Origin: a virus
DNA: 23,743 nucleotides
Direction: 5' to 3' (one strand)
IMG/VR virus record: IMGVR_UViG_3300047562_003248
Span: 1 to 23,743 of that record
In this document: in pieces, positions 1,814 to 21,479 of the stretch
How positions within the stretch are numbered: the stretch's first letter is position 1
Layout of the letters: each line of letters begins with the position of its first letter
Notes under the pieces: generated by a model
Told to the model about the DNA's origin: nothing
Seen by the model: only the letters and a program-made list of their open reading frames with translations
Databases searched by the model: none
Position numbers and translations under genes: made by a program

Positions 1814-4314
1814 TGCGATTTTACACAAACGTTCAAATGGTCGGGGATCACTTCTTGGTTCGCGGTTATGAAAATGGCAAACATTTCATGACTCGTGAGA
1901 AGTTTAACCCGACTCTTTTTGTCCCTTCTAATAAAAAAACTAGATATGAAACTTTGACTGGTGATTATGTTGAAGCAGTTCAACCTGGGTCTGTTCGTGA
2001 TTGTCGAGAGTTTATTAAGAAGTATGAGAACGTAGAAAATTTTAAAATTTATGGTAATACTGGATACATCTACCAATATATTTCGGAAATGTATGCTGAA
2101 GAAGAAATCAAATTTGACATCAGTAAGATAAAAGTTACGACTCTTGATATTGAGGTTGCTTCAGAAAATGGATTCCCAGATGTAGAATCTGCTGCTGAAG
2201 AAGTTTTACTGATTACTATTCAAGATTATTCCTCGAAGCAAATTCGCACTTGGGGCCTTGGTCCATTTCGGAATAAACAAAAAAATGTAATATACAAATC
2301 TTTTCAAACTGAAAGAGATTTGCTGATGGATTTTATTAACTGGTGGATGATTGAAGAAAATACTCCAGAAGTTGTGACTGGTTGGAACGTCGAACTGTAT
2401 GATATTCCATATCTTGTTCGTCGTTTAGATCGTATTCTTGGAGAAAAACTAATGAAACGTTTTTCTCCATGGGGTCTTGTAACTGAAGATGAAATTTATA
2501 TCTCTGGTCGCCGCAATATTTCTTATGATGTTGGTGGTATTACTCAACTTGATTATTTAAATCTTTATAAAAAATTTACTTACAAAGCACAAGAATCTTA
2601 TCGTCTTGATTATATTGCTGAGGTGGAATTGGGTCAGAAAAAACTTGACCACTCTGAATTTGAAACATTCAAGGATTTCTATACGAAGGGATGGCAAAAG
2701 TTCTGTGAATACAACATCGTTGACGTAGAACTTGTTGACCGTTTGGAAGATAAGATGAAATTGATTGAACTTGCGATTACGATGGCGTATGATGCGAAAG
2801 TAAATTATGCCGATGTGTTTTCTCAAGTTCGAATGTGGGATACGATCATTTACAACTACCTAAAGGCAAGAAATATTGTCATCCCTCCTAAAGAGAGATC
2901 TGATAAAGATTCTAAGTATGCTGGGGCATATGTTAAAGAACCGATTCCTGGTGTTTATGATTGGGTGGTCAGTTTTGATCTTAATTCTCTATATCCTCAT
3001 CTCATCATGCAATACAATATTTCGCCAGAAACACTTTTGGAGGAAAGACATCCTAATGCAAATGTTGAAAGGATTTTGAACGAGGAAATTAATTTCGAAT
3101 TATATAAAGACTATGCGGTATGTGCAAATGGAGCAATGTATCGTAAAGATGTTCGTGGATTTCTACCAGAATTGATGGAGAAGATTTATAATGAACGTGT
3201 AATCTTCAAAAAGAAAATGCTTGCGGCAGAGCAAGAGTATGAGAAGACAAAAAATAAACAACTTCTCAAAGAAATTGCTCGTTGCAATAATATTCAGATG
3301 GCGAGAAAAATTCAATTGAACTCTGCCTATGGTGCGATTGGAAATCAGTATTTTCGTTATTTTAAACTTGCAAATGCTGAAGCAATCACTCTATCTGGGC
3401 AAGTGTCTATTCAGTGGATTATGAATGCTATGAATGGATATTTGAACAAAGTTCTTAAGTCAAAAGAGGTTGATTATGTTATTGCTTCAGATACTGATTC
3501 TCTTTACGTTAATATGGGTCCTTTGGTGGAAACTGTATTCAAAGGAAGAGAGAAAACTACTCAAAGTATTGTTTCGTTCCTTGATAAGGTCTGTCAGGTG
3601 GAATTTGAAAAATATATTGAAAGTTCTTATCAAAAATTGGCGGACTATGTGAATGCTTATGATCAAAAGATGTTCATGAAGCGAGAGTGTGTTGCTGAAC
3701 GTGGTATTTGGACTGCGAAGAAGCGATACATTTTGAGTGTGTGGGATAGCGAAGGTGTTCGTTATGAAGAACCTAAACTGAAAATCAAAGGTATTGAAGC
3801 AATTAAATCTTCTACTCCAGCACCTTGCCGCAAAATGCTCAAAGACTCATTTAAAATTATGATGAGTGGAAGTGAAGATGATATGATTGAATTTATTGAT
3901 GAGTGTCGTAAGAAATTCAAATCTCTTCCCCCAGAGCAGATTGCATTTCCAAGAACTGCCTCTGATGTGCGTAAATATCATTCTTCATCAAGCATTTACG
4001 CACATAAAACCCCAATTCATATTCGTGGAGCACTTCTCTTTAATCATTACATTAAAGAGAAAAAATTAACAAATAAATATTCACTTATTGCAAATGGAGA
4101 AAAGGTTAAATTTATTTTCTTGAAAAAACCAAATATAATTCAAGAAAATGTAATTTCTTTCATTCAGGACTTTCCAAAGGAGTTGTGTCTTGACAAATAT
4201 ATCGACTATGAACTACAATTTGAGAAGAGTTTTATTGATCCACTTAAATCAATTCTTGATGCGATTGGGTGGAAAACAGAAAAATCAACAAACTTGGAGT
4301 CATTTTTCGCCTAA
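1813..4314 (+). CDS. 43: Replicative DNA polymerase gp43, family B
   Basis: This 833-residue protein carries the full family B set. The 3'-5' exonuclease motifs are LDIE (D112, E114), TGWNVELYDIPY and YNIVDVELVD. Polymerase motif A is DLNSLYP (389-395), motif B is KIQLNSAYGAIGNQY (from 499) and motif C is SDTDS, with catalytic D560 and D562. T4 gp43 is about 898 residues, so this is the somewhat shorter cyanophage-like form. It copies the phage genome on the gp45 clamp and proofreads. The start overlaps the upstream stop (TAATG), and the next gene is joined in the same way. All catalytic residues appear intact, and no intein or intron interrupts the gene. Confidence 0.97.
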   Translation: MRFYTNVQMVGDHFLVRGYENGKHFMTREKFNPTLFVPSNKKTRYETLTGDYVEAVQPGSVRDCREFIKKYENVENFKIYGNTGYIYQYISEMYAEEEIKFDISKIKVTTLDIEVASENGFPDVESAAEEVLLITIQDYSSKQIRTWGLGPFRNKQKNVIYKSFQTERDLLMDFINWWMIEENTPEVVTGWNVELYDIPYLVRRLDRILGEKLMKRFSPWGLVTEDEIYISGRRNISYDVGGITQLDYLNLYKKFTYKAQESYRLDYIAEVELGQKKLDHSEFETFKDFYTKGWQKFCEYNIVDVELVDRLEDKMKLIELAITMAYDAKVNYADVFSQVRMWDTIIYNYLKARNIVIPPKERSDKDSKYAGAYVKEPIPGVYDWVVSFDLNSLYPHLIMQYNISPETLLEERHPNANVERILNEEINFELYKDYAVCANGAMYRKDVRGFLPELMEKIYNERVIFKKKMLAAEQEYEKTKNKQLLKEIARCNNIQMARKIQLNSAYGAIGNQYFRYFKLANAEAITLSGQVSIQWIMNAMNGYLNKVLKSKEVDYVIASDTDSLYVNMGPLVETVFKGREKTTQSIVSFLDKVCQVEFEKYIESSYQKLADYVNAYDQKMFMKRECVAERGIWTAKKRYILSVWDSEGVRYEEPKLKIKGIEAIKSSTPAPCRKMLKDSFKIMMSGSEDDMIEFIDECRKKFKSLPPEQIAFPRTASDVRKYHSSSSIYAHKTPIHIRGALLFNHYIKEKKLTNKYSLIANGEKVKFIFLKKPNIIQENVISFIQDFPKELCLDKYIDYELQFEKSFIDPLKSILDAIGWKTEKSTNLESFFA

Positions 4315-4451
4315 TGGAATTACCTATTAATCAAAAAGAATTGGAGTATATAATAAACGCAATAAAAAATACAAATCCACAACTTTATGCTAAATTGTGG
4401 TCATATAAATTGAACATTCTTAAAGGGGAAAAAATCAATGGACTTTCTTAA
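4314..4451 (+). CDS. Small protein between gp43 and uvsX (45 residues)
   Basis: The gene starts at the TAATG overlap with gp43 and ends 14 bases inside uvsX. The protein starts MELPINQKELEYIINAIKN and continues as a helical segment ending with a basic stretch (KLNILKGEKINGLS). The function is not known. The double overlap with two core replication genes, and a coding-like sequence with no low complexity, suggest a real gene. A longer form from an ATG at 4269 inside gp43 would overlap the polymerase further and is less likely. Confidence 0.65.
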   Translation: MELPINQKELEYIINAIKNTNPQLYAKLWSYKLNILKGEKINGLS

Positions 4452-5445
4452 AGATATCGTAAAAGAAATTGGAGATGATTACACTAAATTAGCATCAGAT
4501 ATTGACGAAACAGAAACTTATGTTGATACGGGTTCATACATTTTTAATGCACTGGTTTCAGGTAGTATATTTGGTGGTGTATCTGGGAATAAGATTACTG
4601 CTATTGCTGGAGAGTCTTCTACTGGAAAGACTTTTTTCTCTATCGCAGTGGTTAAGAATTTTCTTGATACTCATCCCGATGGTTACTGTCTCTACTTTGA
4701 TACTGAGGCTGCTATCACTAAATCTCTTTTAGAAAGTCGGGGAATTGATACTACACGTCTTGTGGTTGTTAATGTTGTGACTGTTGAAGAGTTCCGTACA
4801 AAGGCACTTAAAGCAGTTGATTTGTATATGAAAAAACCAGAGGCAGAACGCAATCCTTGTATGTTTGTGTTAGACTCTCTGGGTATGCTTTCTACCAGCA
4901 AAGAAATTACTGATGCTTTGAATGAGAAAGAAGTTCGGGACATGACTAAATCGCAACTGATTAAAGGTGCGTTCCGTATGCTTACTCTCAAATTGGGGCA
5001 AGCAAATATTCCCATGATTGTAACTAATCATACTTATGATGTGATTGGTGCTTATGTACCAACTAAAGAAATGGGTGGTGGTAGTGGTTTGAAATATGCA
5101 GCTTCTACTATCATCTATCTAAGTAAGAAAAAAGAAAAGGATGGAACTGAAGTTATTGGAAATATTATTAAAGCAAAAACTGCTAAATCCCGTCTGAGTA
5201 AGGAAAATAAAGATGTTGAAATTCGCCTTTATTATGATGAGCGTGGTCTTGATAGATATTACGGTCTTCTTGAACTTGGTGAAATTGGCGGACTTTGGAA
5301 AAATGTAGCAGGTCGTTATGAAATTGGTGGTAAAAAACTTTATGCTAAACAGATTCTTGCAAATCCGGAAGAATATTTTACTGAAGAAGTAATGAATAGT
5401 CTGAATGATATTGCAAAACGTGAATTCTCTTATGGAACGAATTGA
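4438..5445 (+). CDS. uvsX: UvsX RecA-like recombinase
   Basis: This 335-residue RecA-family ATPase has Walker A GESSTGKT (58-65), the catalytic glutamate region DTEAA (88-92) and Walker B CMFVLDS (D146). The later segment IVTNHTYDV followed by MGGGSGLKY corresponds to the RecA/UvsX DNA-binding loop region. UvsX forms filaments on single-stranded DNA and drives strand exchange for recombination-dependent replication and repair. T4 UvsX is about 391 residues, so this version is shorter. AGGGG (4424-4428) nine bases upstream supports the start. The end overlaps gp41 by 14 bases, matching the T4 neighbourhood in which uvsX precedes 40/41. Confidence 0.95.
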   Translation: MDFLKDIVKEIGDDYTKLASDIDETETYVDTGSYIFNALVSGSIFGGVSGNKITAIAGESSTGKTFFSIAVVKNFLDTHPDGYCLYFDTEAAITKSLLESRGIDTTRLVVVNVVTVEEFRTKALKAVDLYMKKPEAERNPCMFVLDSLGMLSTSKEITDALNEKEVRDMTKSQLIKGAFRMLTLKLGQANIPMIVTNHTYDVIGAYVPTKEMGGGSGLKYAASTIIYLSKKKEKDGTEVIGNIIKAKTAKSRLSKENKDVEIRLYYDERGLDRYYGLLELGEIGGLWKNVAGRYEIGGKKLYAKQILANPEEYFTEEVMNSLNDIAKREFSYGTN

Positions 5446-7418: not shown

Positions 7419-7823
7419 ATGTCTTTGATTGGAAAAAGAAGAGGGAGACCAACTACAAGAATTCAATTTGATTCTATTTTAAAAACTTTTTTAATTTTTT
7501 TGAAAAGGGAACTTAGAATTACATTTGATATTCCTGTAGTTTTTATTGATGATGCTGAGTTTGCAAAAAAATCTTATGCTTTTGGATTTATAAATCCTGA
7601 AGATAAAAGGATTTATGTTAGCATTATAAACAGACATCCCATAGATATTTTAAGAACTCTTTCTCATGAAGTAGTTCACTATAAACAACTTACACAAAAA
7701 AATACTATTAAATCTCATGCTGGGAGTGCAGAAGAAAATTTTGCAAACGCTAAAGCAGGTGAGATTATGAGAAAATATGGAAAACTTCATCCAGAATTAT
7801 TTGACTTAATGCCAATTAGGTGA
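7419..7823 (+). CDS. Putative zinc metallopeptidase-like protein (HExxH)
   Basis: This 134-residue protein has HEVVH at 83-87 and, about 18 residues later, AEENFANAKAG with E105/E106, the layout of a gluzincin in which a downstream glutamate is the third zinc ligand. The spacing and the EE-N-A-N-A pattern resemble M78/ImmA-like or SprT-like minimal proteases more than large secreted ones. There is no signal peptide; the N-terminus is basic (GKRRGRPTTR), which suggests action inside the cell or on nucleoprotein. The substrate is unknown. The stop codon (7821-7823) immediately precedes the -10 box of the tRNA promoter. Confidence 0.72.
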   Translation: MSLIGKRRGRPTTRIQFDSILKTFLIFLKRELRITFDIPVVFIDDAEFAKKSYAFGFINPEDKRIYVSIINRHPIDILRTLSHEVVHYKQLTQKNTIKSHAGSAEENFANAKAGEIMRKYGKLHPELFDLMPIR

Positions 7824-7844: not shown

Positions 7845-7917
7845 GGGGAATTAACTCAGTTGGTAGAGTAGCGCCTTTGCAAGGCGAATGTCAGCGGTTC
7901 GAGTCCGCTATTCTCCA
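7845..7917 (+). tRNA. tRNA-Ala (anticodon UGC)
   Basis: The 73-base cloverleaf folds as follows. The acceptor stem is 7845-7851 with 7910-7916 (one G-U pair). The D arm is ACTC/GAGT with loop AGTTGGTA. The anticodon stem is CGCC/GGCG with loop TTTGCAA and anticodon TGC at 7878-7880. The variable loop has five bases, and the T arm AGCGG/CCGCT has loop TTCGAGT. The outermost anticodon-stem pair is G-A, a mismatch. The discriminator is A7917 and CCA is not encoded, so host enzymes would have to add it. It reads GCA codons. The 5' end lies in a run of eight G (7841-7848). Confidence 0.93.
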
Positions 7918-7965: not shown

Positions 7966-9300
7966 ATGAAACTATTCTCAAAATTTATTACAGAAGCAAC
8001 CGCAGCATCTCAACAGGCAAACAGATTAGGTCTTGTTGGGGATGGGCATGGTGGATGGTATAACAGAGCTACTGGAGAATTTGAAGCAAAGACAGTAGGT
8101 GGATCTTTACAGTATTATAATAAGAGACAGAGAATACCTGGAAAAGATCCTAATCAAACTCCAAGAGAAAAGCAGATTGCTTCTCCTGGATACAATGAAG
8201 TTCCAGTAACTCCCCAGGTTCAACAAGTACCACAGGAGCAAATTCCTCAAGAGATTCCTCAAGAGCAAATTCCTCAAGAGATTCCTCAGGAACAAATCCC
8301 CCAAGAAGAGATTCCACAAGAACAAATTCCACTACCAAGCTTTATTCCTGTAGAAAAAACCAAACAGATATTGACAATTGTATTTGGTAGATTTAATCCC
8401 CCAACAGTTGCTCATCAAGAGTTGATGGATACTGCTGCACAATTTTCTATGGAGGAGGGTGGTGATTATGTAATCTTACCATCAAGAAGTTTTGATCCTA
8501 AAAAGAATCCTTTGGATCCGGATACAAAAATATTTTTTATGAGAAAAATGTTTCCAGATCATAGTGAGAGAATTGTTAATGATCCGAATCAAATTACAAT
8601 TTTTGATACTTTAAAAAAAGCACATAATGATGGGTATGCGAATGTAAGGATAATTTGTGGATCTGAAAGAGCAAAGGAATTTGAAAAATTATCAAATAAT
8701 TATAATGGACAATTATATGAATTTGATATTATTGAAGTTTTTCCTGTTGGAGATGTAGATCCAGATGGAAAAAAAGTAGATGCAATTTCTTCTTCAAGAA
8801 TGAGACTCGCTGCAGCAGAAGGAGATTTGGTTACATTTAGAGACTTACTTCCCAGAACAATTAAGACTAAAGAAGTGATTGAATTATTTGATTTAGTTCG
8901 ACAGGGGATGGGTATACAAGAAATGCAACAAGAAGGATATAATCTTTGGGAAATTGCACCAAAGTTTGATTTACAATCTTTGAGAGAAAATTATATTCAT
9001 AATAATATTTTTAAAGTTGGTGATATTGTAGAAAATTTAAATACTGGTCTTTCTGGAAAAATTATTCGTAGAGGAACCAACTATTTAATTTGTGTAACTG
9101 AGGACAATATAATGTTTAAATCCTGGATTAAAGATGTTTCTGAATCATATACTGAAAAACATATGTCTAGAAAGATGAGAACTCCTGGAAAAAGAAATAC
9201 TCTTATTGGTACTGACGGATATAGGAAAAATGCTATGGACGTTATGGGTGTACGTAATATAAAGAATTTCATAAATAGAAATAGAAAAAAAGTAAAGTAA
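7966..9300 (+). CDS. Nucleotidyltransferase with capsid-targeting-like N-terminus
   Basis: This 444-residue protein starts MKLFSKFITEA, closely matching the capsid-targeting sequence of T4 internal proteins (MKTYQEFIAEA). Cleavage after ITE would fit gp21 protease. A linker follows with Pro-Gln-Glu-Ile repeats (89-122). The catalytic domain begins LTIVFGRFNPPTVAH (136-150) and has ISSSRMR (274-280). These are the two signatures of the HxGH nucleotidyltransferase superfamily, closest in look to NMN/nicotinate-mononucleotide adenylyltransferases, although the first HxGH histidine is replaced by T147. The C-terminus has a small beta domain (FKVGDIVENLNTG..RRGTNYLICVTEDNIMFKSWI) and a very basic tail. 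An ATG at 7888 lies inside the tRNA and was rejected. The substrate is not certain. Confidence 0.85.
   Translation: MKLFSKFITEATAASQQANRLGLVGDGHGGWYNRATGEFEAKTVGGSLQYYNKRQRIPGKDPNQTPREKQIASPGYNEVPVTPQVQQVPQEQIPQEIPQEQIPQEIPQEQIPQEEIPQEQIPLPSFIPVEKTKQILTIVFGRFNPPTVAHQELMDTAAQFSMEEGGDYVILPSRSFDPKKNPLDPDTKIFFMRKMFPDHSERIVNDPNQITIFDTLKKAHNDGYANVRIICGSERAKEFEKLSNNYNGQLYEFDIIEVFPVGDVDPDGKKVDAISSSRMRLAAAEGDLVTFRDLLPRTIKTKEVIELFDLVRQGMGIQEMQQEGYNLWEIAPKFDLQSLRENYIHNNIFKVGDIVENLNTGLSGKIIRRGTNYLICVTEDNIMFKSWIKDVSESYTEKHMSRKMRTPGKRNTLIGTDGYRKNAMDVMGVRNIKNFINRNRKKVK
8230..8331 (+). repeat. Pro-Gln-Glu-Ile repeats, 27-bp period
   Basis: Codons 89-122 of the nucleotidyltransferase gene encode alternating IPQE and IPQEQ units. 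At the DNA level a 27-bp unit at 8239-8265 recurs at 8266-8292 with few changes. It probably forms a flexible linker between the N-terminal segment and the catalytic domain. Confidence 0.85.
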
Positions 9301-9312
9301 AAAAGTTTTCTC

Positions 9313-10788
9313 ATGAAAAAGCACATTGCTGAAGAATTACCTGCAAGAAAATTTCCACAGGCGTCTTTATCAAAAGGTGGTGATGATAAAGACCGTCAGG
9401 GTGGCGATAGAGGTCGTGAGGTTGGTGAAGGTGGAGAAAAAACTCCGGAAAAGAGAGTTAGACAAGCAGTTTACGATATTAAATATCGCGCAAGAAGAGA
9501 AAATATTCCTTTGAGAGCAGCATACACTCAATACATGCAAAATAGTTCTATGTCCGAACAAGAAAAATCAATGGTGAGAGAAAAACTTTTTGGTAAAGGT
9601 GGAATTGTAAAGGAAACATATTTGCAAGGTATTCCAGAATTAGCATCTTCCTCAGTTGCAAAGGCATTGTATAATGTTTTTGTTGAGAAAAAATCTGAAA
9701 CTATTGATTATGACCAACTTAAAAATGAATTAGAAGAATCATCTCACAACAGTGGAGAAAGAAAATATAAAGTAAGAGTTACTGATAAAAATGGAACTTC
9801 TTATGTAAGATATGCAACTCGTGAAAAAATTAATTCTCTCAGATCAAATCCAAATATTGATTCTGTCGAGATGACTGAATATGGCGAACCTTATGAAGGA
9901 GAAGCAAAAGGCGGTAAGCAAACTGCTGCGGCAAAAGCAGGTAAAGATTATGACGGAGATGGTAAAGTAGAAAGTGGTGCTAAAGAGTATCGTGGTGCAG
10001 TTCATAATGCTATTCAACGTAAAAAAGGTGGAGTTCCTGATGGTAAAGATACCTCAAGTGTAAAGGAAGAATTTCTTGGAGAGTTAACAGACGAACGTAC
10101 AATTGATGTTAAAGGTAAAAAAAAACCTAACAAAATTATCGTGCATCACAAAAATGATAATGATATGACCGAAAGTTCATATTCTAAATTTTTGGGATTG
10201 TTGAGCGAAAAGAAAATGACATCTTCTGAAAAAAAGAAGGAAAAAAAATTAAAGAAAAAATATGATGATTCTGGCATGAAGGCGAGCATGAAAAAACAGT
10301 ATGGATCAAAAAAAGGTGAAAATGTTTATTTTGCTACGATTCGCAAACAGGCAATGAAAGAAGAATCTTGTGGATCTGATGATAAAACAAAAAATGATCC
10401 AAGACAAGGTGCGACTAAAAGAAGTTTGATCAGAACTAAACTTGGTTCAATGGGAATAAACAAAGCAGTTATAATGTCAGCTTCTTATGAACCAGAAGGT
10501 GAAGTAATTGATGAAAGACGGAGAGAAGATAAAGGAAAACCAAGAAAACCACGCAATCGTGCAGTTGAACTTGTAAAGTCGAAAAATAAAGAAGGAATGA
10601 TGACCAGGAGTGGAAGAACTATTGCTCAGCACGAAGAAGACAGAGGTGTTTCTGAACGCGATCGTCCTAGAGAAGCAGAAGAAACAACCGCTGATAGACT
10701 TGCAGCAAGAAAGAATAGAGAAGCAGCAGCAAAAGCATCCGCTCAAAGAGCAAGAGAGGATGAAAATAGAAGACGCAGACTTAATTGA
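9313..10788 (+). CDS. Putative virion-associated protein, lysine-rich, with a Ca-binding-like loop
   Basis: This 491-residue protein has no recognised enzyme domain. It is rich in Lys, Glu, Gly and Arg. It contains DYDGDGKVESGAKEY, a D-x-D-x-D-G acidic loop like those of calcium-binding EF-hand or Excalibur motifs, and an internal SSYSKFLGLLSEKK (289-301) that echoes the N-terminal targeting motif of neighbouring late proteins, with a possible gp21-type LSE site. A long basic segment (KKEKKLKKKYDD) and an Arg-rich C-terminus suggest DNA or core contact. It follows the nucleotidyltransferase by 12 bases and probably shares its transcript. Virion or prohead-core location is inference. Confidence 0.7.
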   Translation: MKKHIAEELPARKFPQASLSKGGDDKDRQGGDRGREVGEGGEKTPEKRVRQAVYDIKYRARRENIPLRAAYTQYMQNSSMSEQEKSMVREKLFGKGGIVKETYLQGIPELASSSVAKALYNVFVEKKSETIDYDQLKNELEESSHNSGERKYKVRVTDKNGTSYVRYATREKINSLRSNPNIDSVEMTEYGEPYEGEAKGGKQTAAAKAGKDYDGDGKVESGAKEYRGAVHNAIQRKKGGVPDGKDTSSVKEEFLGELTDERTIDVKGKKKPNKIIVHHKNDNDMTESSYSKFLGLLSEKKMTSSEKKKEKKLKKKYDDSGMKASMKKQYGSKKGENVYFATIRKQAMKEESCGSDDKTKNDPRQGATKRSLIRTKLGSMGINKAVIMSASYEPEGEVIDERRREDKGKPRKPRNRAVELVKSKNKEGMMTRSGRTIAQHEEDRGVSERDRPREAEETTADRLAARKNREAAAKASAQRAREDENRRRRLN

Positions 10789-17417: not shown

Positions 17418-18323
17418 ATGTCTAGAATTACTGGAAGTGAAGTACAGGGATTGATGGAAGCATATTCTGCTGTTTATGCTCCGCAAGAACTTACCGAAGA
17501 GCAAGTTTGGGAAGAAGTTGAAGCATGGGTAAATTCACTCGTAGAAGAGGGTTATGACCTGAGTGAGTATACTTGGGAAGATATGTATGAAGAGTATCTG
17601 AATGAAATGGGACAACCTGGTGGTAATCGTCCTGGTGGTAATAGACCAATTTCTAACACACCATATCAATCAAGATTTGCTCGTCCAATGAATGCTGGAA
17701 CTCCAGTTTCTCAAGGTGCTAGAAGAGGTGCCGCACCTTCCAGACCTGTAGCAAGACCACAAATTGGAGGATTGGGTGGATTGGGTGCTGGATATAGAGG
17801 AGCAGAACTTCAACAAGCAGCAAGAGCAAGAGCATCTCAAGTAGGTACACCACGCCAAGGAACTGCAGGTGGTCCTACAACTGGTGGCAATACTCCTATT
17901 GGATCTTCACCTTCCCCTGCCCCTGCAGCAACACAGGTAGTTTCTAAACCAACTACAACAGCAACTGCTCCTGCAGCAACACAGGTAGTTTCTAAACCAA
18001 CTACAACAGCAACTGCTCCTGCAGCACCAACTCCATCCGCAACTACAACTGCTCCAGCAACACCTGCTAGAACTTTTAATCCTTTGATGCAGAGAACTTT
18101 TGGTTATCAGACTGGTTATGCACCAAGTCAGGTTAAACAAGATCCTAAAAAAATGGCGCAAATGGGATCATTGAGAAGTATTAGTTCTTCATTTGATGTA
18201 TTTGATGTTGTTCAAGGATATCTGATTGATGAAGGATATGCTGAAACTGAAGAGGCAGCGGCAGTCATTATGGCAAACATGAGTGAAGAGTGGAAACAAA
18301 GCATTATTGAAAGTATTGTTTGA
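17418..18323 (+). CDS. Putative virion protein with two shared helical modules, 301 residues
   Basis: The N-terminal module (27-63) reads EEQVWEEVEAWVNSLVEEGY then DLSEYTWEDMYEEYLNE. The middle is low complexity, rich in Gly, Pro, Thr and Ala, with an exact 16-residue tandem duplication. The C-terminal module (257-301) contains DVVQGYLIDEGYAETEEAAA and MSEEWKQSIIE. Both modules recur in the gene at 19776 in the other order. No enzyme motif is present. Late promoter, late neighbours and linker-type composition point to a virion or prohead-core protein. Proteins with this WVNSL..GYDLS..TW motif are, as I recall, widespread in cyanophages but poorly understood. Confidence 0.75.
   Translation: MSRITGSEVQGLMEAYSAVYAPQELTEEQVWEEVEAWVNSLVEEGYDLSEYTWEDMYEEYLNEMGQPGGNRPGGNRPISNTPYQSRFARPMNAGTPVSQGARRGAAPSRPVARPQIGGLGGLGAGYRGAELQQAARARASQVGTPRQGTAGGPTTGGNTPIGSSPSPAPAATQVVSKPTTTATAPAATQVVSKPTTTATAPAAPTPSATTTAPATPARTFNPLMQRTFGYQTGYAPSQVKQDPKKMAQMGSLRSISSSFDVFDVVQGYLIDEGYAETEEAAAVIMANMSEEWKQSIIESIV
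17922..18026 (+). repeat. 48-bp tandem repeat in the 301-residue protein gene
   Basis: Two copies, 17922-17969 and 17970-18017, are identical over 48 bases, and a 9-base third start follows. Each copy encodes PAATQVVSKPTTTATA. The unit is a multiple of three, so copy number can change without a frameshift. Confidence 0.95.
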
Positions 18324-18401: not shown

Positions 18402-19733
18402 ATGAAGTCTTTTAGTCAATTTTTGCAAGAATCTTATATTGAAGAAGAGCAAGCAGATCAACTCAGACTATTAAAAAGAGATAATAAAACTGCGTATGAT
18501 CTTAGAAAACCCATAGGAAATAGAGGACTTTCTACAGATCCTACTCCACCTCCTGCAAATAGAAGACTTGGACCATCTGCTCCAGAAGCACCAAAAGAAG
18601 CTCCAGGTCAACAAGTAATTAGACAAACTTCTAATCCCCCAACTACAAAAGCACTGGAACCTGGCAAACCTGGGAAACCATTAGCAAAACCAATTAATCA
18701 AATTCCAGATGCAATGGCTCAAGGAGCGTATGATGCTGCAAGAAGTAATCCCAGAACTGGAACACCTAGTAATTTAACTGCTACACCTTCTACACCACTA
18801 TCTTCTACACCACAACGTCGTCCTCCCGCAGCAAATACATCACCACAACGTCGCCCACCATCAGTAAATCCATCTTCAAGGGTTGAAGTTTTGGGTAAAC
18901 CACCATCAGGATCTCCACCTAGATCACCTGGTGGAGCATTAGCATTAAGACCCCAAGGATCATCAGCATTGACTACTTCTGCTGGAAGTCAATCTAAACC
19001 AATTAATGTTAGAACTAATTTAAACGTACCCGGCGGAAGACCAAAAATTCCTGGATTAAAATCTGGTGGAGCCATTAGTGCTGCACTTGGTACTGCTGAT
19101 GAAAAAATGAAAGGATCTGGTTGGGCAAGATCTCTCGCTAAAGGTGCTACAGTAGGTGCTGGTGCTGTTTTAGGTGGTCTTGCTGGTGGCGCTGCTGGAA
19201 CTGCAATTGCCCCTGGTGCTGGAACCGCAATTGGTGGTTATGCTGGACAAGCAGTAGGCGCTGCAGCAGCAGAAAAAGCGTTTGATGTTGCTGCTGGCGC
19301 GAATGCAAAAGAAAGAGCAGCAATGGCAACTGCAAACCGCCAGCGTCAAGCAGGAACCGCTATTAAAGGTATTGGTGGGCAAACAACATTCAGTCAGAAG
19401 AAACCAGGTGGTCCTGCATTTATGTCAACTGGTGTTGGTAATCAGAGAAGAACTGTTCAACTTGCCAAGACTGGCGTAGTTCACAGAGGTGGTCAATCAG
19501 TTGCTGGACATCTTGCATTCAAAGGTGGTAAAGCAGTTTATAAAGCGGGACCAAGTGCTCAATCTCTTGCTAAAACTTCTTCTAACCCATTAGAAAGAAT
19601 TGGAAGAACTTTATTTGCAGGTGCTTATAAGAAGCATGATGCAGCAAAAGCACAACAAGCATTGGCAAAAGCAAGACAAAATGATGCTGCTCGTAATAAA
19701 AAACTTGGAGTAAAGGCACTTCCTGGCAAGTGA
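18402..19733 (+). CDS. Putative internal or ejected virion protein with capsid-targeting-like N-terminus
   Basis: This 443-residue protein starts MKSFSQFLQES, the same pattern as T4 internal proteins and as the nucleotidyltransferase at 7966, with a gp21-type site after LQE. A Pro/Ser/Thr-rich unstructured half follows, with PQRRPPA and PQRRPPS repeats. Residues 248-290 form a long Gly/Ala zipper (GAGAVLGGLAGGAAGTAIAP onward) that could insert into a membrane. The C-terminal half is basic. This layout (targeting peptide, flexible arm, glycine zipper) would fit a protein packaged in the head and ejected with the DNA. It could equally be a scaffold component. It has its own late promoter. Confidence 0.72.
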   Translation: MKSFSQFLQESYIEEEQADQLRLLKRDNKTAYDLRKPIGNRGLSTDPTPPPANRRLGPSAPEAPKEAPGQQVIRQTSNPPTTKALEPGKPGKPLAKPINQIPDAMAQGAYDAARSNPRTGTPSNLTATPSTPLSSTPQRRPPAANTSPQRRPPSVNPSSRVEVLGKPPSGSPPRSPGGALALRPQGSSALTTSAGSQSKPINVRTNLNVPGGRPKIPGLKSGGAISAALGTADEKMKGSGWARSLAKGATVGAGAVLGGLAGGAAGTAIAPGAGTAIGGYAGQAVGAAAAEKAFDVAAGANAKERAAMATANRQRQAGTAIKGIGGQTTFSQKKPGGPAFMSTGVGNQRRTVQLAKTGVVHRGGQSVAGHLAFKGGKAVYKAGPSAQSLAKTSSNPLERIGRTLFAGAYKKHDAAKAQQALAKARQNDAARNKKLGVKALPGK

Positions 19734-19775: not shown

Positions 19776-21479
19776 ATGTCTAGAATTTCGCAAGACTTTA
19801 TTAATAATCTTGGTTTTTTATATGAGAGCGTTCATGTAAAAGATCAAGATTTTTTAAATGAAGAGTCTGAATATTATGATGCAGAGTTGACAGAATTTGT
19901 AGCAGATATTCTTTCCACAATTTCTTCATCTATGGTTTGTGAGGGTTATAGTGCAGAAGGAATATTTTCTTTTCTTGAAATTTCTTCAGATGAAACTATC
20001 ATTGAGAAATATTTAAATTTTGATGAATCTTTTCTTACTGAAAGTGTTGTTGAAGAAGGATATATTGAAGAGCAATTGTATTTGTTTGATTCTACAATTT
20101 TAGAATTTTTGGGGGCACTTGGTAAGGGAGCAATTAATCTTATTGGAAGGGTAGCATCAAAACCTGCAAGAATGGCAGTTGCCAAAAAAATTATGAATAG
20201 TAAAGATCCTATTAGAACAGCAGCAGCTGTAGATAGATGGGCTCGAACGAAATTGGGTAAATCTGGATTTAATCCTAATTTAGTTTCTAAGGCTGGTGAT
20301 CTTTCCATGAAAACTAGAATGGGAAAACTTGCTCCAGCACTTGGAAAAATAAGAGACATTGCTAGAGGAGCAAAAGGATTTGCAAAAAATGCTTTATTGG
20401 CAGGCACTGGTGTTCTTGCTGGATATGCTGGTGCTAAATTAGGAAGTGGTGGTTCTGGACAACAAGATGGTGGTAAGCAAACACCATCTGGAACTGACGG
20501 AACTGGAGGATCTGGAAGTGGTGGAGGAACTGGAGGATCTGGAAGTGGTGGAGGAACTGGAGAACCTGTAATGAGAGATCCAGTAAGACCTTCTAGAACT
20601 CAAGATTCAAGGAACAATCAATATCAAAGAGATAGAGCAGCAATTTCTACTGCTAAGACTCCTGAGGCAAAAGCGGCAGCAGTTAAGAAAGCAGAAGAAA
20701 CTGGAATGGCTGCTTGGGCAAAGGCACATCCAGAACTTGCTGCTAAAGTAAAACCTGGTCAATCTGGTTATGATGTAATTACTAAGACAAGATTAAAACC
20801 AGGTCCTAATGAAAAACAAGATCAAACACCGACAATTGGGAAACCAGAAGCACAAATTGATAAGTCATCAGTAGAAGCAGATATTAAGAGAGAACAGGAA
20901 AGATTAAAGAAAAAGGCACAACAAACACCAGTAACTGCTAAAGAATCATATGATTCTTATGATGTCATTCTTGAATATTTAATTGATACTGAGCAGGTTG
21001 ATACTCTTGAAGAAGCACATTATGTAATGTTAGAAATGGATGCTGAAACAGTTGGAGATATTATTGAAGAATATGAAGATTATTTACTTGCTGAAGAAAT
21101 TGAAGAATGGGTAAATGATCTTTTAGACGAAGGTTATGATCTTTCAGAATATACTTGGGATGAAATAGTTGAGTATTATGTGACTGAAGGATTCAAACCT
21201 ACTGGATACCATCATGATTTTGATCCTTATAGGTGGGATTATGGACGAAATCAGTCTACAGCAACTTCACCTAGAGGTAGAAGAATTCAAAAGAGAGTAA
21301 GAGACTTAGAAGATTCTGGAGATCAAAAAACAGCAGATCGTATTCATAAGGCAGCAAGTAATAGAAGTAATCAAGAAAGAGGACTTGCAAAACAAAAAAG
21401 AAATAAAAGAAGAGGTCCTGGACCAAGAAGAGCAAGACAAGACGCTATGAGAGATATGAGTGATTCTGGATTTGCATAA
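19776..21479 (+). CDS. Putative virion protein sharing modules with the 17418 gene, 567 residues
   Basis: The N-terminus is acidic and helical, with several [FY]L-x-E segments; FLTES (86-90), then IEEQ, echoes the start of the 18402 protein. A basic helical segment follows (GKGAINLIGRVASKPARMAV), then a short glycine zipper (206-220) and a Gly/Ser linker with a 9-residue tandem repeat. Module A lies at 394-431 (DVILEYLIDTEQVDTLEEAH onward) and module B at 439-470 (EEIEEWVNDLLDEGYDLSEY then TWDEI). The C-terminal 80 residues are very basic. No enzyme motif is seen. It is late-expressed and probably virion-associated; basic tail and zipper are compatible with DNA contact or ejection. Confidence 0.73.
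   Translation: MSRISQDFINNLGFLYESVHVKDQDFLNEESEYYDAELTEFVADILSTISSSMVCEGYSAEGIFSFLEISSDETIIEKYLNFDESFLTESVVEEGYIEEQLYLFDSTILEFLGALGKGAINLIGRVASKPARMAVAKKIMNSKDPIRTAAAVDRWARTKLGKSGFNPNLVSKAGDLSMKTRMGKLAPALGKIRDIARGAKGFAKNALLAGTGVLAGYAGAKLGSGGSGQQDGGKQTPSGTDGTGGSGSGGGTGGSGSGGGTGEPVMRDPVRPSRTQDSRNNQYQRDRAAISTAKTPEAKAAAVKKAEETGMAAWAKAHPELAAKVKPGQSGYDVITKTRLKPGPNEKQDQTPTIGKPEAQIDKSSVEADIKREQERLKKKAQQTPVTAKESYDSYDVILEYLIDTEQVDTLEEAHYVMLEMDAETVGDIIEEYEDYLLAEEIEEWVNDLLDEGYDLSEYTWDEIVEYYVTEGFKPTGYHHDFDPYRWDYGRNQSTATSPRGRRIQKRVRDLEDSGDQKTADRIHKAASNRSNQERGLAKQKRNKRRGPGPRRARQDAMRDMSDSGFA
20499..20560 (+). repeat. 27-bp tandem repeat (Gly/Ser linker)
   Basis: The unit at 20499-20525 is repeated exactly at 20526-20552, with an 8-base partial third copy. 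Each unit encodes GTGGSGSGG. Confidence 0.92.

Follow-up and report, generated by a model that had tools for sequence, protein, structure and literature searches.

A nucleotidyltransferase gene preceded by tRNA-Ala

The window analysed here, a stretch of 23,743 nucleotides from an IMG/VR virus record, is a fragment of a T4-like cyanophage; among the isolates of the phage collection it comes closest to S-SRM01, from freshwater (73% DNA identity along the stretch). On the plus strand, which also carries the next gene and the second CTS gene described below, an open reading frame and a profile match identified a whole gene at 7966..9300 for a nucleotidyltransferase of the Kyanoviridae family phrog_395, named T4-GC190 in genome papers. 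Its ATG at 7966 and its stop codon at 9298-9300 delimit a protein of 444 amino acids. The start at 7888 of the open reading frame listing was rejected, since it would overlap the tRNA-Ala gene (7845-7917) that directly precedes the nucleotidyltransferase gene, and since this upstream start is absent from relatives, in every one of which the MKxF methionine is the start. The next gene (9313..10788) encodes a basic 491 aa protein assigned to phrog_3326 by profile match. The S-SCSM1 gene product paired with it by syntenic position is a virion protein detected by mass spectrometry (MS).

The profile search matched phrog_395 ('cytidyltransferase') with an E-value of 1.5e-90 over residues 129-414, which comprise the core and the C-terminal barrel. 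The gene neighbourhood agrees with that in S-SRM01, S-SCSM1 and S-SM2, and the S-SCSM1 member, there called NMNAT (QFG06348.1), likewise follows mazG with tRNA-Ala close by. Members of the family show the same domain order as the window protein, including a capsid targeting sequence (CTS) and a 'GHG' mini-domain, and relatives have been detected in virions. The clade of the window protein differs from the other members by TxAH instead of (T/H)xGH in motif 1 and by a longer IPQEQ linker. Relatives are present in more than 500 phage records, by far most of them from Synechococcus and Prochlorococcus phages, and 449 candidate stretches encoding a relative were found in IMG/VR. A scan queried with the relative from jumbo phage K64-1 returned a near-identical copy only. 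The jumbo-phage relatives (K64-1 and GAP32; L089 and L094) are bare cores that adjoin a DNA methyltransferase, and their genomes encode a NAPRTase/NadV-type enzyme. Both the family and its occurrence in virions had been described for relatives, whereas the CTS and the mini-domain shared with other proteins are new here.

Domain layout and predicted fold

The protein begins with the CTS MKLFSKFITE (residues 1-10; 7966..7995), recognized by its match to T4 IPIII; the prohead protease is predicted to cleave after codon 10, ahead of codon 11 (ITE/A). The adjoining mini-domain (residues 12-52; 7999..8121) has the pattern A..A..LGL..DGHGGWY...GEFEAKTVGG.LQYY and was delimited by AF2 and sequence comparison as a helix followed by beta strands. 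It is followed by a Pro/Gln/Glu-rich linker (residues 57-130; 8134..8355), disordered in AF2, in which TRF detected arrays of IPQEQ/IPQE units at 8220-8330 and which varies between 58 and 85 aa across relatives. The HIGH-type nucleotidyltransferase core (residues 133-319; 8362..8922) was delimited by Pfam, AF2, Foldseek and VIA. Alignment placed in it GRFNPPTVAH (residues 141-150; 8386..8415), an (H/T)xGH motif with a G149A change, and ISSSRMR (residues 274-280; 8785..8805), a motif of the SSTxxR type in which R280 is invariant. An SH3-like small beta barrel (residues 336-395; 8971..9150; AF2 and Foldseek) and a basic tail (residues 396-444; 9151..9297; sequence and AF2) complete the protein. 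The barrel also occurs as a separate open reading frame in S-CAM1 and P-HM1. The preliminary description of this DNA had listed a targeting-like N-terminus, a repeat linker, a core with the two motifs, a small beta domain and a basic tail. All of these were recovered, while the GHG mini-domain and the Gly149-to-Ala change had been overlooked.

In an AF2 model built with 50 diverse relatives, pLDDT was mostly above 90 in the core; the barrel was confident, the mini-domain fairly confident and the tail weak. Pfam CTP_transf_like (PF01467) matched the window protein slightly below its 21-bit cut-off (20.6 bits, E 0.00055), and all 50 diverse family members gave such matches (best 2.6e-10). Foldseek placed NadD/NMNAT first for the core (1.9e-6), followed by PPAT and FAD synthetase. 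On VIA re-alignment PPAT, NadD and archaeal NMNAT all scored Z 12-13.8 (rmsd 2.8 and 150 aligned residues with Z up to 13.8). The earlier assignment to an enzyme class related to NMN adenylyltransferase is supported by the predicted fold, a Rossmann-like nucleotidyltransferase fold. In sequence searches, phmmer of the protein against PDB gave no match, and the family profile reached only E 0.09-0.5 against PDB, with a weak UPF0348 (MJ0951) match. E. coli NadD and CoaD could be aligned by hhalign over 21-24 columns near motif 1 only, at low probability. For the barrel, the best Foldseek hit had an E-value of 1.8e-3 among mixed MscS, KOW-type and Tudor folds, and we kept the designation SH3-like. 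Over residues 133-319 the window protein has the fold of cellular NadD/NMNAT and CoaD (PPAT) and counterparts of their two nucleotide-binding motifs, the first with Ala at position 149, but at ~12-19% identity, below the curated cut-offs, and it adds packaging and SH3-like domains.

A T4-type capsid targeting sequence

The internal proteins IPIII, IPII and IPI of T4, as well as Alt, carry a 10-residue N-terminal CTS, and the internal proteins are prohead cargo that is trimmed by gp21 (PMC9958956, PMC9026906). The window protein (MKLFSKFITEA) shares F/Y4, F7, I/L8 and E10 with the start of IPIII, which reads MKTYQEFIAEA in its record. According to mutational work in T4, targeting depends on residues 4 and 7, and processing on residues 8 and 10 (PMC9026906). 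Among 41 distinct N-termini of the family, F7 and E10 were invariant, position 4 was F or Y and position 8 was I, L or V, while positions 3, 5, 6 and 9 varied. The functional positions 4, 7, 8 and 10 were conserved in all 80 IMG/VR relatives compared, which had been retrieved with patterns that did not cover the N-terminal CTS stretch. The cargo differs from that of T4: it is a nucleotidyltransferase unrelated to the T4 internal proteins, with an additional GHG mini-domain and linker, and its fold does not consume NAD by ADP-ribosyl transfer, as Alt does. In the literature searched, with partial journal coverage, we found no description of a CTS linked to cyanophage proteins; the sole match names cyanophages in its references only.

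Members of the family have been detected by MS in virions of S-SM1 (PMC3037559), S-SCSM1 (PMC9602691) and S-CREM2 (PMC10665884), and S-CBWM1 is cited alongside in the virion-proteome literature. Presence in purified virions was established by others, in relatives; the domain layout, the fold, the CTS match, its conservation and its co-occurrence with MS-detected virion proteins were computed here. The packaging proposed in the preliminary description is strongly supported by this CTS with its conserved functional positions and by the published MS of orthologues. Packaging in the head is well supported, with virion detection coming from relatives of the window phage. By analogy with T4, the protein may be injected together with the DNA. 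Injection of the family enzyme and an effect on NAD were already proposed for relatives (PMC9602691, PMC10665884). The annotations of S-SCSM1 and S-CREM2 include a prohead protease of the gp21 type, which lies in a region that the 23.7 kb of the window do not cover.

Other proteins with a CTS

In 815 kb of related DNA, a strict CTS expression gave 87 matches, 85 of which were members of this nucleotidyltransferase family, and none in shuffled proteins. The remaining two represent one other protein, encoded in the window at 18402..19733 (MKSFSQFLQE/S) and by a homologue in S-SRM01 (L095:31947). This Ala/Gly/Pro-rich protein is, judged by its sequence, probably another internal head protein. Its gene is flanked by 17418-18323 (phrog_3708) and 19776-21479 (phrog_27516), which match no Pfam family and share an EEWVN.L.EEGYDLSEYTW-like repeated segment, N-terminal in one and C-terminal in the other. 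Elsewhere in the window, 7419-7823 encodes a 134-aa HExxH protein with a weak Peptidase_M78/DUF6782 match and no CTS; an IMG/VR protein with a comparable weak M78 match (L314:590-1051), unlike this copy, does bear a CTS.

In S-CREM2 a strict N-terminal CTS was found in 4 of 218 open reading frames, and all four are on the list of 52 virion proteins (Fisher p=0.003): a SAM lyase (PF23780), an APH-like kinase, the nucleotidyltransferase and gp13, to which no function is assigned. A relaxed motif adds the Cas9-like nuclease, with the motif core at residue 18. The SAM lyase (L246:3837-5081), as a CTS-bearing virion protein, suggests an injected anti-restriction activity. S-SCSM1 has a single further CTS open reading frame (44215-44535), which is absent from the MS-detected proteins.

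Scanning IMG/VR in an unbiased way with the back-translated CTS yielded at least 78 usable open reading frames. Among the matches listed, all 78 begin at most 27 codons from the preceding in-frame stop, as true starts would, and the nucleotidyltransferase family forms the largest group, about half. The others listed include a GNAT acetyltransferase (Pfam), DUF6267 proteins, a DPBB protein and a WYL_2 protein, together with HAD phosphatase-like and ADP-ribosyltransferase-like proteins recognized by eye only. Two CTS genes were adjacent (L288:3736-4149 and 4149-4529), one with an HGT-type ADP-ribosyltransferase-like start and no Pfam match, the other encoding a GNAT acetyltransferase.

Motif 1 and selection on the core

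The preliminary description had held that threonine in place of the first histidine of HxGH leaves the activity open. This concern proved unfounded: either residue belongs to the normal signature, (H/T)xGH, the working enzyme CoaD of E. coli has GTFDPITNGH at the aligned position, and the two residues interchange within the family, where 80 loci comprised 63 TxGH, 14 TxAH and 3 HxGH and the jumbo-phage relatives K64-1 and GAP32 have HxGH. With CoaD and relatives bearing Thr, we rejected the idea that this residue means an inactive enzyme. The Gly149-to-Ala change that produces TxAH is, in the sequences compared, more unusual than the Thr. It was found in all 14 members of the window clade, whereas Gly is present in 80 of 80 other sequences, and T147 and H150 are kept. 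In the same clade the near-invariant D234 is replaced by E, T or G and the common R264 by V or I. Relaxed selection was nevertheless not seen in the TxAH clade, which is under purifying selection, with a median core dN/dS of ~0.11 compared with 0.14 in canonical relatives. Because its core is under the same constraint as that of the other members, altered specificity or chemistry would be a more likely explanation than decay.

The acceptor substrate

The protein is modelled as a HIGH-type adenylyltransferase fold, from which the substrate cannot be read because PPAT, NadD and archaeal NMNAT lie within ~1.5 Z of each other. A cytidylyltransferase, as the family name implies, was considered and rejected since ATP-using adenylyltransferases predominate among the Foldseek and VIA matches listed, although CTP could still be used. 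Specific NCBIfam matches among 50 members, all weak, were to NadR/NadD in 40 and to CoaD in 11. As the NMNAT profiles give the best fit, a pyridine mononucleotide (NMN or NaMN, giving NAD) would be the likeliest single acceptor, a tentative choice that we would place somewhat short of an even chance.

NAD had been put forward in the preliminary description as a target, and it may be one. The NMNAT equivalog TIGR00482 gave 12.5 bits against a cut-off of 112.45, and no family record scored above the cut-off. NadV/NAMPT (PF04095) was encoded in none of the 16 other phage records that carry the gene and was confined to two jumbo phages, K64-1 and GAP32, although every NadM phage is reported to have NadV (PMC9503650). 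A complete phage NAD salvage pathway (NadV plus NMNAT) was therefore rejected for the cyanophage records, in which the host would need to supply the mononucleotide. The 'NAD synthetase' annotated in S-SRM01 (L095:35019-35450) is a SegE GIY-YIG endonuclease according to Pfam (E 9.5e-39) and is misannotated.

A proposed internal head enzyme

We consider it probable, with moderate confidence, that this gene supplies a T4-like freshwater cyanophage with an internal head enzyme, which is packaged by its CTS, trimmed, injected and transfers AMP to a small acceptor. The protein would be synthesized late in infection and enter the prohead core via residues 4 and 7 of the CTS, perhaps with assistance from the GHG mini-domain next to it. 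The prohead protease would then trim it after Glu10, and the enzyme would stay in the head on its flexible linker until it enters the host together with the DNA, where, during the first minutes of infection, the core may move AMP from ATP onto a small acceptor.

Packaging and injection are also compatible with an acceptor other than a pyridine nucleotide, the enzyme being specialised as a PPAT, a FAD synthase or otherwise, or modifying a host macromolecule. That PPAT equals or exceeds the other folds in VIA Z, that TxGH is the PPAT form, the missing NadV partner, the weak MJ0951 match and an SH3-like domain that could bind a macromolecule all speak for this reading, which we regard as unlikely but deserving real weight; the NCBIfam matches (40 to 11 for NadD/NadR over CoaD) and the Foldseek ranking with NadD/NMNAT at the top argue against it. 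Less probable still is a non-catalytic core in the TxAH clade, which would make the protein a DNA-condensing or structural filler of the head or one that binds a ligand without turnover. The clade-wide G149A and the replacements of D234 and R264 would fit, as would the basic tail and the large variable linker, but H150, ISSSRMR and most core invariants are kept, and the dN/dS values of 0.11 and 0.14 reveal no relaxation.

The proteomics literature itself raises another reading, in which a soluble enzyme of the infection phase merely co-purifies with virions. The authors of a relative's proteome left this possible, and the short jumbo-phage relatives have no CTS at all. We find it very improbable in view of the independent detection in several phages, the T4-type CTS with its conserved functional residues and the S-CREM2 open reading frames with a CTS, all of which encode virion proteins. 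Several proteomics papers left undecided whether cyanophage virion enzymes are packaged or contaminants. A CTS that is conserved at key residues, and in S-CREM2 is found on virion-detected proteins only, partly answers this question and can be tested by point mutation. It also yields an easily applied sequence criterion by which injected effectors of marine and freshwater viruses can be sought.

The GHG mini-domain on unrelated virion proteins

The mini-domain was also found behind CTS-like peptides in S-CREM2 gp12 (Cas9-like nuclease) and gp14 (APH kinase, two copies), in g128 and the PKN8 kinase of S-CRM01, in ACG-2014f gp190, and in PKN8 (two copies) and a 977-aa protein of S-H34. The S-CREM2 nuclease and kinase and the S-CRM01 kinase, like the window protein's relatives, are reported virion proteins, but their catalytic domains are different; moreover, the S-CREM2 and S-H34 kinases contain two mini-domain copies, and the CTS core of gp12 lies away from the initial Met. 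Because the mini-domain travels with unrelated virion enzymes, the simplest reading of these sequences is that it may be a cargo-loading or retention element.

We lean, by a little, towards the broader proposal that CTS and GHG form a portable cargo-loading module of the Kyanoviridae, such that any protein bearing it would be loaded into the head and delivered to the host by injection. If so, the module would mark delivered enzymes that include the nucleotidyltransferase, kinases, the SAM lyase and the Cas9-like nuclease, together with the GNAT, DUF6267 and possible HAD-like and ADP-ribosyltransferase-like proteins of the IMG/VR scan. The injected effectors of cyanophages could then be read from sequence. 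Relatives of Pelagibacter phage HTVC008M also have a GHG-like mini-domain within large unassigned proteins (L194, L235 and L238).
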